Made by a program: the position numbers and the translations under genes. A stretch of 32,721 nt of DNA from the NCBI GenBank assembly GCA_024697025.1, contig JAILGH010000051.1, positions 1 to 32,721 of the forward strand, read 5' to 3'. Of the stretch, positions 2,880 to 28,183 are shown in pieces (the first letter of the stretch is position 1; the number at the start of each line of letters is the position of its first letter). The stretch is from Pseudobutyrivibrio sp. Lineage in GTDB: Bacteria > Bacillota > Clostridia > Lachnospirales > Lachnospiraceae. The notes beneath the pieces are model-generated. The model was not told the DNA's origin and did not search any database. It saw only the letters and a list, made by a program, of their open reading frames with translations.

Positions 2880-3422
2880 ATGGCACAGAATAAATACGCA
2901 GGTACAAAAACAGAGAAGAACCTTTGGGAGGCATTTGCTGGAGAGTCAATGGCTCGCAATAAATATACATATTTTGCTTCAGTTGCAAAGAAGGCAGGAT
3001 ATGAGCAGATCGCAGCACTTTTCTTAAAGACTGCTGACAACGAGAAGGAGCATGCAAAGCTTTGGTTCAAGGCTCTTGGCGAGCTTGGTGATACACCAGA
3101 GAATCTTCTTCATGCAGCAGAGGGTGAGAACGCAGAGTGGACAGACATGTATGATCGCATGGCTAAGGAAGCTGACGAAGAGGGATTCCCTGAGTTGGCA
3201 GCTCAGTTTAGAGGCGTTGCAGCTATCGAAAAGCTTCACGAGGAGCGTTATCGCAAGCTTCTTCACAACGTAGAGGCTATGGAAGTATTCAAGAAGAGTG
3301 GAGTTACAATGTGGGAGTGCCGCAACTGTGGTCACGTGGTTGTTGGTCTTGAGGCTCCTCAGGTTTGCCCAGTCTGCAAGCATCCACAGAGCTTCTTCGA
3401 AGTACATGCTGAGAATTACTAA
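2880..3422 (+). CDS. rbr: Rubrerythrin
   Basis: Rubrerythrin is a cytosolic diiron protein that reduces hydrogen peroxide in anaerobes. The N-terminal ferritin-like four-helix domain shows the diiron ligands: Glu22 (GES), Glu55-x-x-His58, Glu83/Glu86, and Glu117-x-x-His120. A C-terminal rubredoxin domain has paired cysteines Cys147/Cys150 and Cys163/Cys166. The order (ferritin-like, then rubredoxin) and length (180 aa) are those of classical rubrerythrin, not the reversed form. The ATG follows AAAGGAGG at 2865-2872. Codon use is strongly biased, suggesting high expression. It is monocistronic, with its own terminator immediately downstream. Confidence 0.97.
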
Positions 3423-3457
3423 TAGACATTCTCATATTACAAACAAGACTTAATATT

Positions 3458-3492
3458 AGTGAGTTGCCGAAAATCCGGCAACTCACTTTTTC
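3458..3492 (+). terminator. Rho-independent terminator of rbr
   Basis: A 12-bp perfect stem AGTGAGTTGCCG (3458-3469) / CGGCAACTCACT (3476-3487), loop AAAATC, is followed by a run of T from 3487. Confidence 0.95.
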
Positions 3493-4087
3493 TATTCACA
3501 GTCATATACACAATGGGCCAGAAGCAGCTCTTGCTATAGTGGTATAGGTGAATTTGAACAGAATAATAGCTTTTCTTATTGCTGCAAATGTAGCTTTAAG
3601 TGGGCGTACTTTCATTGGTTTTGCACTTTTAAGCTACTGTATGTAGTGCTCAGACAATTGAGGATTATATTTATTCCCTGGAAGTTATATGCACCCAAGT
3701 TGCCTTCATGTTCCATTCATCAAGTGGATTTTAGGAAATGAGTTTTGTAGATATGGGCACCAGTCAAGATTCACATCCATGTTCAACTTTCCTTGACCTC
3801 GCCGTCCATGGCTCGGTCTGCCCATATCTATCAAAACTTATTTCCTAATCCACTAGATTCATTCCAAAATCAGGCAACCAGGTGCATATAACCTCCAGGG
3901 AATTATCTATAAATAGTGGTTGTCTGAGCAAAACATACTGTGGCGAAAAAAGTGCAAAGAATTGAAAGAACGTCCACAATAGAAAAAGCTACATGCAGCA
4001 ATTAGAAAATCATTATTCTGTGATTGAACCTATACCACTATAGCAAGAGCTGCTTCTGGATAATTCAGTCAAATAGACTGTGAATAG
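3492..4087. repeat. Giant imperfect inverted repeat (596-nt foldback); structured RNA or MITE-like element
   Basis: The whole gene-free stretch between rubrerythrin and the next gene folds back on itself. Perfect helices seen by direct comparison: base CTATTCACAGTC 3492-3503 with 4076-4087 (12 bp); 3518-3549 with 4028-4059 (32 bp); apical 3748-3759 with 3819-3830 (12 bp). Between them the arms stay largely complementary and in register (for example the GCTCAGACAA block, the ATTCCCTGGA-GTTATATGCACC block and the TAGGAAAT block), broken by small bulges. The 59-nt apical loop (3760-3818) itself holds GTCAAG/CTTGAC (3763-3768/3792-3797) and GCC/GGC (3801-3803/3810-3812). There is no credible ORF and no transposase. 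It could be a large noncoding RNA, a MITE-like element, or a decayed duplicated inverted segment. Confidence 0.85.
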
Positions 4088-4088
4088 T

Positions 4089-4110
4089 AATAGGGATTTT
4101 TCCTATTTTC
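4089..4110 (+). terminator. Weak terminator-like hairpin after the giant inverted repeat
   Basis: AATAGG (4089-4094) and CCTATT (4102-4107) form a 6-bp stem around GATTTTT, followed by TTC. It directly abuts the base of the 596-nt foldback. The stem is AU-rich, so termination would be inefficient; it could also be chance. Confidence 0.35.
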
Positions 4111-4140
4111 TTGCATGGACAGATATTATTAAACTATAAT
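4111..4140 (+). promoter_or_regulatory. Candidate sigma-A promoter giving a leaderless or near-leaderless mRNA
   Basis: TTGCAT (4111-4116), 18 nt, TATAAT (4135-4140). The expected start, about 7 nt beyond the perfect -10 box, coincides with the ATG at 4147. No Shine-Dalgarno sequence precedes that ATG. A second possible -10, TATTAT at 4124-4129, would give a leader of about 11 nt, also without a ribosome site. Confidence 0.5.
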
Positions 4141-4146
4141 AAACGA

Positions 4147-4425
4147 ATGGAACATTATAAATTTTTTCAGAATAGAGAATGTGAATATTTTCCATGTCAC
4201 AAGACAGACCATCCAGAGGATTTTAACTGTCTGTTTTGTTATTGTCCCCTTTATTGCCTTGGGGACAAGTGCGGGGGCAATTTTACTTATACAGAAAGCG
4301 GAATAAAATCCTGCGTTAATTGTCTGCGACCACATGTCAGGGATAACTACGATGACATTAACGCACAGTTTAGTAAGATAGTTGAGGTTATGAAAAGCAG
4401 TGAAACACAAGATAGTCAGAATTAG
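4147..4425 (+). CDS. Cys-rich small-domain protein (putative metal-binding, zf-like family)
   Basis: A 92-residue cytosolic protein with about ten cysteines, mostly in CxxC-like groups: ECEYFPCHK near the N terminus, NCLFCYCPLYCLGDKCGGNF in the middle and SCVNCLRPH after it. This arrangement matches the cysteine-rich small domain family, often found as a separate protein or fusion next to cobalamin genes in anaerobes and archaea; I recognise the pattern but its biochemical role is not established. ATG 4147 is chosen because the conserved part starts at once (MEHYKFFQNRECEYFPC). A TTG at 4111 would be in frame but lies on the promoter. The next gene starts inside its 3' end (26-nt overlap), so the two are probably translated together. 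The C-terminal 30 residues are polar and without cysteine. Confidence 0.7.
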   Translation: MEHYKFFQNRECEYFPCHKTDHPEDFNCLFCYCPLYCLGDKCGGNFTYTESGIKSCVNCLRPHVRDNYDDINAQFSKIVEVMKSSETQDSQN

Positions 4426-4999
4426 TCCCGAGTATTCTGATATAGATGACATAATTCATCGGTATCATTTTAGTGAAGATGACAGACCCCTGATAAAATC
4501 CCTTTATCAGAAGCATTTTTCTAGGCCACAGGTGCAGATAGCCTATGACATTAATCCTGAAATTGAGGGTATCGATTTAGATGATTTTGCAGTGGCAATA
4601 GTTACTTTGGGTGCTGAAATAGATGAGATTATAAATAGCTACGTGGCTAAAGAGCAGATTTTGGAGACATATATTCTAGATGCCATTGCAGTAAAGATTC
4701 TTTCCAGAGCCTACACTACCCTTGTGAAGGACGTAAATAGATTTAGTGGCAAGACCGTGTCATCGCTGGAGTTTATAGGCGATAGGTTTCCTATGGAATT
4801 GACTGAGGCTGTATTAGATTATCTAAAGCCTGATGGGGTGTCACTTAAAGAGGGCTATATGCTTTCTCCATTAAAAACCGTTTGCATGATTCTTCCTTTA
4901 AAGGAAGGCGGGGATAATGCTTCGGACAATGTGGAAAAGATATGCAATACCTGTAGCAAGTGTGGAAATCTTAAATGTATTATGAGAAATAGTACCTAA
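4400..4999 (+). CDS. Protein resembling the B12-dependent methionine synthase activation domain
   Basis: This 199-residue soluble protein resembles free-standing homologues of the MetH activation (AdoMet-binding) domain found in Clostridia. Supporting segments are the VTLGAEIDEIINSYVAKEQILETYILDAIAVKIL helix-rich core (compare LGxxVDxxI...xxxYVLDAIG in the family) and a C-terminal cysteine cluster CNTCSKCGNLKC. The AdoMet-binding Arg-x3-Gly-Tyr motif of MetH is not evident (FIGDRFPME stands in that region), so reactivation activity is uncertain. The start is GTG 4400, overlapping the Cys-rich gene; GAGG at 4384-4387 is 12 nt away, so translational coupling is likely. No other in-frame start occurs until far inside. 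Its neighbours (Cys-rich small domain, cbiL 1.6 kb upstream) suggest a corrinoid role. Confidence 0.6.
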   Translation: MKHKIVRISPEYSDIDDIIHRYHFSEDDRPLIKSLYQKHFSRPQVQIAYDINPEIEGIDLDDFAVAIVTLGAEIDEIINSYVAKEQILETYILDAIAVKILSRAYTTLVKDVNRFSGKTVSSLEFIGDRFPMELTEAVLDYLKPDGVSLKEGYMLSPLKTVCMILPLKEGGDNASDNVEKICNTCSKCGNLKCIMRNST

Positions 5000-27506: not shown

Positions 27507-27959
27507 ATGCGCGTAAAAACTAGACTATTCGGCGAAATAGAGATTTCCGATGAAAAAGTCATCAGCCTCGTGCATGGATTGATTGGTTTTCCAGACATGA
27601 AGCGCTATACACTCATTTTCGACGAAGAAAAGAAAGACAAAGGAAATATCATGTGGTTACAGTCTCTCGATGAGACAGATTTTGCAATGCCAGTTATGCT
27701 TCCTCATATTGTAAAGCCGGATTATTCACCAGCTTTTAACGTGGATTCTCTCGAGCAGTTAGGGGAGTTAACAGCAGAAAACACTTATGTACTGGTTACA
27801 GTTAGGGTACCAAAGAACCCTAAAGAAGCATCTGTCAATTTAAAGGCACCTATTGTTATCAACTCTGATACTAATGTTGGCGACCAGATAATTATCGAGG
27901 GCTCAGAGCCAGTTCGTTATCTGATTCATGATGCAATACATGGAAAGGATGGTGAGTAG
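27507..27959 (+). CDS. fliW: Flagellar assembly factor FliW
   Basis: FliW is a small beta-barrel protein that binds flagellin or CsrA in turn. When flagellin is exported, freed FliW blocks CsrA and so lifts repression of flagellin translation. The 150 residues show the family features: MRVKTRLFGEIEISDEKVISLVHGLIGFPDMKRYTLI, LQSLDETDFAMPV, and the C-terminal VNLKAPIVIN...QIIIEGSEPVRYLI. AGGAGG precedes the ATG. It lies 2 nt before csrA, the usual pair in flagellated Firmicutes and epsilonproteobacteria. Confidence 0.97.
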   Translation: MRVKTRLFGEIEISDEKVISLVHGLIGFPDMKRYTLIFDEEKKDKGNIMWLQSLDETDFAMPVMLPHIVKPDYSPAFNVDSLEQLGELTAENTYVLVTVRVPKNPKEASVNLKAPIVINSDTNVGDQIIIEGSEPVRYLIHDAIHGKDGE

Positions 27960-27961
27960 CG

Positions 27962-28183
27962 ATGTTGGCATTAACACGAAAAACAGGCGACGCAATTATG
28001 ATCAACAACAACATCGAGATTACAGTCCTTGAGGTTCGCGGTGATCAGGTCAAAATTGGAATTTCTGCTCCAAAAGAAGTTTCAATCTATCGTAAAGAGG
28101 TATACTTAGAGATTCAGAAAGAAAACGAAGAGGCTCAAGGCATCAGTATGGATGACGTTGAAGCTCTTAAAAATCTTTTGTAA
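27962..28183 (+). CDS. csrA: Translational regulator CsrA
   Basis: CsrA is a homodimeric RNA-binding protein that recognises GGA in hairpin loops and at ribosome sites and represses translation of flagellin. The 73-residue protein has MLALTRKTGDAIMINNNIEITVLEVRGDQVKIGISAPKEVSIYRKEVY: the N-terminal strand with Arg6 and the GVxAPxxVxIxRxE-type region that contacts RNA. The C-terminal extension (EEAQGISMDDVEALKNLL) is of the longer Firmicute type that FliW contacts. It is translated from GGTGAG overlapping the fliW end. Likely targets in this window are the flagellin and flaG leaders. Confidence 0.97.
   Translation: MLALTRKTGDAIMINNNIEITVLEVRGDQVKIGISAPKEVSIYRKEVYLEIQKENEEAQGISMDDVEALKNLL

Follow-up and report, generated by a model that had tools for sequence, protein, structure and literature searches.

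A dispersed Pseudobutyrivibrio palindrome family with a predicted CsrA-binding RNA tip and arms probably renewed by DNA template switching

A 596-nt foldback lies at positions 3492-4087 of the 32,721-nt stretch of DNA that we analysed (the window), between a rubrerythrin gene and a gene for a Cys-rich small-domain protein. We consider it probable that this foldback belongs to a dispersed family of Pseudobutyrivibrio palindromes, in which a predicted CsrA-binding RNA tip is carried on arms that DNA template switching has lengthened, kept matching and flipped. Transcription of the minus strand would expose the two ANGGAN loops of the tip, and these would bind a CsrA dimer, so that the RNA would titrate CsrA as a decoy. 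The arms would be made, lengthened, corrected and flipped through replication template switching or through recombination between the arms. If the arms are made by such copying or recombination, their length is an outcome at the DNA level, rather than a selected RNA duplex.

The foldback and its dispersed family

The coordinates of the foldback had been proposed from the letters of the DNA alone (the sequence-only reading), and they proved correct when both strands were folded. The plus strand pairs along its whole length, with a folding energy of -300.4 kcal/mol (z -25.1, shuffle mean -138.0), and the minus strand reaches -298.4 kcal/mol (z -24.3), with 0 of 100 shuffles as good in either case. 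Several further details of that reading were recovered, namely a base helix of 12 bp, a perfect helix of 32 bp, an apical loop of 59 nt (3760-3818) that bears two small hairpins of its own, and a strong intrinsic terminator ahead of the foldback at 3458-3487. As it had also stated, the foldback contains no open reading frame (0 ORFs of at least 80 aa overlap it) and no strong promoter; the sigma-70-like sites in 3380-4250 number 2 versus 3.5 expected, which is not above chance and counts against the preferred reading. The weak hairpin that it had placed after the foldback is readable by eye at about 4088-4110, but is missing from the terminator scan. The features are as follows.

2880..3422, plus strand: rubrerythrin gene (context)
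3458..3487, plus strand: intrinsic terminator of rubrerythrin, abutting the element (terminator scan)
3488..3503, plus strand: left terminal inverted repeat, family form GTTACTATTCACAGTC, with 2 mismatches in the window copy
3492..4087, no strand assigned: whole foldback element (fold of both strands and own-genome repeats)
3492..3759, plus strand: left arm of the palindrome (fold)
3709..3868, minus strand: TwoAYGGAY RNA (RF01731), apex and inner stem (cmscan 65.8 bits, gathering cut-off 43)
3772..3783, minus strand: second CsrA-like hairpin, AAC-AUGGAU-GUG, hexaloop 3775-3780
3801..3812, minus strand: first CsrA-like hairpin, GCC-AUGGAC-GGC, hexaloop 3804-3809
3819..4087, plus strand: right arm of the palindrome (fold)
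4076..4091, minus strand: right terminal inverted repeat, 1 mismatch versus the family form
4111..4425, plus strand: Cys-rich small-domain protein gene, PF04071 (context)
27507..28183, plus strand: fliW and csrA, sharing a contig with the element, CsrA being the proposed protein partner

Two further observations concern the surroundings. A 199-aa ORF at window positions 4400-4996 has no Pfam match and is present in just 3 of 29 genomes of the genus, and the fliW/csrA pair is flanked by ORFs that by eye have a flagellar look.

The element matches 18 distinct places in its own genome, counting the window copy, fragments and contig-end halves, and the better ones among these reach 82-90% identity with the copy in the window. 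Matches occur in 18 of 41 genomes (own genome included, 17 genera searched), every one of them Pseudobutyrivibrio. Neither the plasmid collection nor the phage collection holds a match, and carriage by plasmid or phage was rejected on this ground. A GTTACTATTCACAGTC-type sequence stands at both ends of five own-genome copies (L001-L005) and of the apex-deleted copy L044, and at one end of three partial copies (L006, L037, L038). The own-genome copies thus have terminal inverted repeats in common, as MITEs do, and the outer ends differ in other species. Element-like termini were also seen outside the element-matched places, once as a 194-nt inverted pair (G000:C77:274-467) and once alone (G000:C65:18742-18757).

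Hairpins were measured where two ANGGA motifs and pairing were both present, which was the case in 60 of 106 loci (2 of the 60 rows are duplicates). The span is 572-845 nt in 32 of the 43 hairpins measured in the genus and 133-332 nt in the 15 measured from other genera. By simple ORF calls, the 40 genus placements with both neighbours divide into 13 convergent, 3 divergent, 14 ++ and 10 --, and the 12 placements from other genera include 7 -- and 3 ++. With tandem placements thus distributed over both orientations, cis-regulation by a fixed orientation is unsupported. Individual placements include one element (G022:C1:229880-230357) about 200 nt from the csrA of that genome (229517-229672), and two loci at which a pair of TwoAYGGAY-like hairpins lie near each other, about 300 nt apart at G264:C1:3031630-3032061 and about 250 nt apart at L085.

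The TwoAYGGAY tip and its association with csrA

The minus strand of the apex and inner stem matches the Rfam family TwoAYGGAY over the full length of the model (1-168), above the gathering cut-off; this assignment requires a library, and the sequence-only reading had not made it. It is the only family that exceeds its cut-off over the window; the matches to RAGATH-12 (17.5 bits) and snoR113 (17.3 bits) are at chance level. The skipping-rope class, which the sequence-only reading had named as the first comparison, does not apply, since a search of 3400-4150 that admitted E values up to 1 gave no match to RF02924. The two loops, AUGGAC and AUGGAU, are AYGGAY loops, and both apex hairpins present the ANGGAN hexaloop of CsrA-binding RNAs, although in the second hairpin of the window copy just two Watson-Crick pairs adjoin the loop. 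PMC7652899 describes CsrA/RsmE sites as ANGGAN hexaloops. TwoAYGGAY has already been predicted as CsrA-binding in PMC4333381, so the idea is not new, and the family is also named in PMC11661157 and PMC7657543. Among the open-licence papers found by our literature searches, no title or abstract opening concerned TwoAYGGAY palindromes or a test of CsrA binding by TwoAYGGAY. Rfam clan CL00106 holds both TwoAYGGAY and CsrB.

Loop conservation was counted over loci gathered by BLAST with the window element, with no demand for the loop motif; after removal of 4 duplicates, 86 loci were used, of which 79 cover the apex and 7 do not (L024, L044, L055, L062, L063, L064, L068). Of the 79 copies, 78 retain GGA in loop 1, 66 retain it in loop 2 and 65 retain it in both, some of the misses being alignment gaps; the set leans to conserved tips, because loci were chosen for their similarity to the window copy and 14 loci of one genome (G004) entered through matches confined to the apex region. 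By column, the A and the GGA are 87-100% conserved, compared with 52% and 44% for the first N, and 80% and 54% for the last N, of loops 1 and 2, respectively.

The distribution of csrA agrees with this assignment. The own genome carries csrA at window positions 27962-28183, beside fliW. Across the class, csrA is present in 125 of 391 genomes, and TwoAYGGAY was detected at E up to 0.001 in 36, with 27 of the 36 above the Rfam cut-off; the negatives may include misses, since just 7 candidates per genome were scored. Specifically, 31 of the 36 TwoAYGGAY genomes carry csrA, versus 94 of the 355 others (Fisher p = 2e-12, in a test that ignores phylogeny). The association is similar among good-quality genomes (26 of 28 versus 84 of 290) and among genera (22 of 23 versus 55 of 199), with p below 1e-9 in all three comparisons, and csrA is found in 23 of the 27 genomes whose match exceeds the Rfam cut-off. 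Five TwoAYGGAY genomes yielded no csrA; four of them (G220, G262, G301, G318) belong to one family (f37) and are fragmented assemblies, and the genus-mates of the fifth (G362), G235 and G295, have the gene. Together, csrA co-occurrence and loop conservation provide new genomic support for the published prediction of a CsrA-binding RNA in Clostridia. In our reading the tip is a small selected RNA module and most likely serves as a decoy that binds CsrA.

Occupied sites, mirrored flanks and inverted centres

The sequence-only reading had asked whether the foldback was a very large structured RNA or a MITE-like element, and each half of that alternative caught something: the tip is an RNA module, TwoAYGGAY, and the foldback is multi-copy, without the target-site duplication that such an element might show. 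The search for homologues in the own genome and in relatives yielded the multi-copy family and two sites with presence and absence. Inspection by eye of the own-genome flanks and of both sites revealed no target-site duplication.

Site 1 lies between conserved convergent genes, and both of its flanks were present in 15 of the 27 loci examined. It is filled in eight (G012, G020, G014, G009, G023, G005, G003, G011) and empty in seven, with a gap of about 65-223 nt (G022, G001, G017, G042, G010, G043, G000). In the six of the eight filled loci that were folded, the pairing spans most of the intergene interval, reaching -471.7 kcal/mol over 811 nt in G011. At several filled loci the sequence adjacent to one stop codon, including the terminator, recurs by eye in inverted form at the other stop. 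Site 2 is filled in G003, G009 and G023 and empty in G042, G010, G017 and G013 (4 of 7 empty), G014 being undecided. At site 1 of G014 (L290), we observed that the arms are kept and the TwoAYGGAY apex is gone, with a new near-perfect palindrome tip formed from stem sequence.

The comparison of rubrerythrin loci that had been suggested gave a mixed outcome. The element stands at this position in G011, where the outer stem differs and yet pairs (85 N inside), but no clean empty site was obtained, because the downstream genes differ in the six other genomes in which the element was not seen (by eye, up to 900 nt behind rbr). The eighth genome of this comparison, G021, gave no rbr match.

The flanks carry a second kind of evidence. 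The hairpin-to-stop distances are correlated over the 13 convergent placements (rho 0.91) versus -0.15 over the 24 tandem ones. When the two flanks of a convergent placement are aligned as inverted copies, the match beats all 200 shuffles in 9 of the 11 alignable pairs (two narrowly), and the other two pairs do not beat the shuffles. The window copy is itself a palindrome without clearly mirrored flanks, as judged by eye.

The third kind of evidence is inversion of the centre at orthologous sites. Between G023 and G009 (L016/L018), the element matches at 95.8% inverted versus 86.7% direct, while the flanks are 93-94% identical. The inverted orientation is likewise the better one for L281/L282 (88.0% versus 81.5%) and L019/L075 (80.9% versus 71.8%). 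The direct orientation is better for L020/L023 (95.9% versus 80.1%) and L032/L074 (98.7% versus 79.2%); L016/L067 looks direct (82.8 versus 76.4), and the two orientations are close for L041/L070 (71.7 versus 67.2). For L028/L053 and L017/L065, the reverse matches are confined to the inside of the element.

These data bear on the idea of a non-autonomous foldback of the MITE type, mobilised in trans by a transposase specific for its termini, with the RNA module as cargo. This explanation, which overlaps the preferred one, we consider unlikely. The multiple copies with GTTACTATTCACAGTC-type termini in the own genome and the orthologous sites found both filled and empty speak for it, as do nine copies in G004 with identical apices. 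Over about 100 nt at the apex those nine copies are identical, and along the arms they diverge outwards, unlike the product of whole-element transposition; this pattern fits selection on the tip, or its homogenisation, combined with locus-specific renewal of the arms. Outer ends that vary between species, a window copy with no open frame of at least 80 aa, and flanks in which no target duplication was seen by eye, in the own genome and at the two filled/empty sites, also weigh against transposition.

Arm pairing, its cause and comparison with known systems

Covariation in the arms was counted in an alignment of 35 of the 43 own-genus hairpins, those that were truncated, core-only or short being dropped (L006, L022, L039-L042, L046, L075). 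A pair counted as consensus if at least 8 copies formed it, a rule that favours pairing; shuffles and slid pairings served as controls. At least two Watson-Crick types occur at 141 of 230 consensus pairs, versus a mean of 89 and a maximum of 100 in 200 shuffles, and 50-74 in the slid pairings. Compensatory changes are thus abundant, and the earlier argument that the kept register speaks against simple decay stands.

Covariation of this kind would ordinarily be read as proof that an RNA is under selection, but the balance of wobble pairs points elsewhere. Over the consensus pairs, the non-Watson-Crick cells comprise 298 G-U and 299 A-C (loci without both ANGGA motifs are omitted from the wobble counts). 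Restricting the count to pairs with a Watson-Crick share of at least 50% leaves 178 G-U versus 182 A-C in the arms; the control, RNase P sampled in 27 genomes of the genus, has 63 versus 4. The ratio of G-U to A-C is 17:30 in the inner, 66:68 in the middle and 95:84 in the outer zone of the arms, and splitting the tandem loci by strand gives 101:106 for ++ (14 loci) and 73:75 for -- (10 loci), as summed by hand. Additionally, double changes over all sequence pairs comprise 10729 transitions and 10165 transversions (not independent events), a near equality that is not the pattern expected from G-U intermediates. Locally, G-U predominates over A-C in the stretch 30-89 pairs away from the apex (genus 78:19, other genera 24:9), and the reverse holds at 90-119 pairs (24:75 in the genus). 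Counted by columns, successive near-apex blocks give 3:6, 7:4 and 16:17, so most of the near-apex lead vanishes and is caused by a few shared columns; some RNA constraint on the inner stem, at 30-89 pairs from the apex, is possible. In the RF01731 stem of the 15 hairpins from other genera there is no overall wobble excess (G-U 32, A-C 28), and the structure in Rfam may therefore partly reflect DNA palindromes.

The near equality of G-U and A-C over the arms indicates that complementarity is kept strand-symmetrically, and on these sequence counts it is most simply held by a cause at the DNA level rather than as a selected RNA duplex. The same balance could also be expected from selection on a DNA hairpin or from transcripts of both strands. 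Selection on the pairing of a DNA hairpin or cruciform, which might for instance serve in binding or recombination or mark the boundary between convergent genes, is in our judgement rather improbable; like the other rivals, it overlaps the preferred reading. It would account for strand-symmetric pairing, for the mismatches conserved in the arms and for 13 convergent versus 3 divergent placements among 40 in the genus; it sits poorly with apex loops conserved as an RNA-binding motif and with empty orthologous sites as common as 7 of 15 (site 1) and 4 of 7 (site 2). The very large RNA of the sequence-only reading, with the whole 600-nt hairpin expressed as a transcript of one strand and kept as a duplex by selection, is very improbable: strong covariation across 35 copies, conserved internal mismatches, an apex from a known RNA family and the G-U excess by cells at 30-89 pairs from the apex are in its favour, but the arms as a whole lack an excess like that of RNase P, in all three zones and after the split by strand, and the centre flips between sister genomes.

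Template switching accounts for these features under the preferred reading. According to PMC8604942, template switching at inverted repeats homogenises the arms and inverts the spacers, and PMC8794818 describes it as creating, extending and maintaining hairpins, in which compensatory changes affect several bases and loops are inverted. Footprints of all the reported kinds are present in the family, at an unusual scale, and for this reason we read the element as an RNA module combined with a renewed DNA palindrome. The internal mismatches that persist as conserved positions within the arms count against it, since pure correction should erase them, and so do the uneven wobble balance along the arms, the lack of clear mirroring in the flanks of the window copy, the two-pair stem of its second loop and the five TwoAYGGAY genomes that yielded no csrA. 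More tentatively, we put forward a self-maintaining palindrome, which template switching would rebuild, lengthen and flip, with a selected CsrA decoy tip and with caps formed by inverted copies of local terminators; this fuller version is possible but somewhat doubtful. If it were true, the covariation of the stem would be mutational, and relying on covariation alone would lead to a 600-nt RNA being accepted in error. The family is a natural example of abundant base-pair covariation that is nevertheless wobble-symmetric overall, pointing to a DNA-level cause, and the comparison of G-U with A-C against an RNA control from the same genomes is applicable to other large-hairpin RNA candidates.

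The element resembles TwoAYGGAY (RF01731) in its full-length minus-strand match and its two hairpins with ANGGAN loops. It differs in that the module here tops a long palindrome, the hairpins of other genera having a far shorter span (133-332 nt), and in that Rfam files TwoAYGGAY as cis-regulatory, whereas the placements here have no clear orientation bias. With CsrB, CsrC and RsmZ it shares GGA loops, the clan (with CsrB) and a csrA gene in the genome. CsrB gathers many CsrA sites within one RNA; here two predicted sites are present per copy and the copies are many. MITEs and REP/BIME are dispersed, intergenic, palindromic extragenic elements. Our element is likewise dispersed, intergenic and palindromic, mostly 3' of at least one gene, but its arms are much longer, its outer ends vary between species, no target duplication was seen, and it has no known mobilising enzyme, the termini alone having been scanned. 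The hairpins attributed to template switching in PMC8794818 and PMC8604942 show the same multiple compensatory changes, stem extension and inverted loops or spacers. Those hairpins involve short repeats, the largest pattern named in the accessible part of PMC8794818 being 59 bp, whereas the mirrored stretch in the present family reaches hundreds of bp, with whole terminators included.
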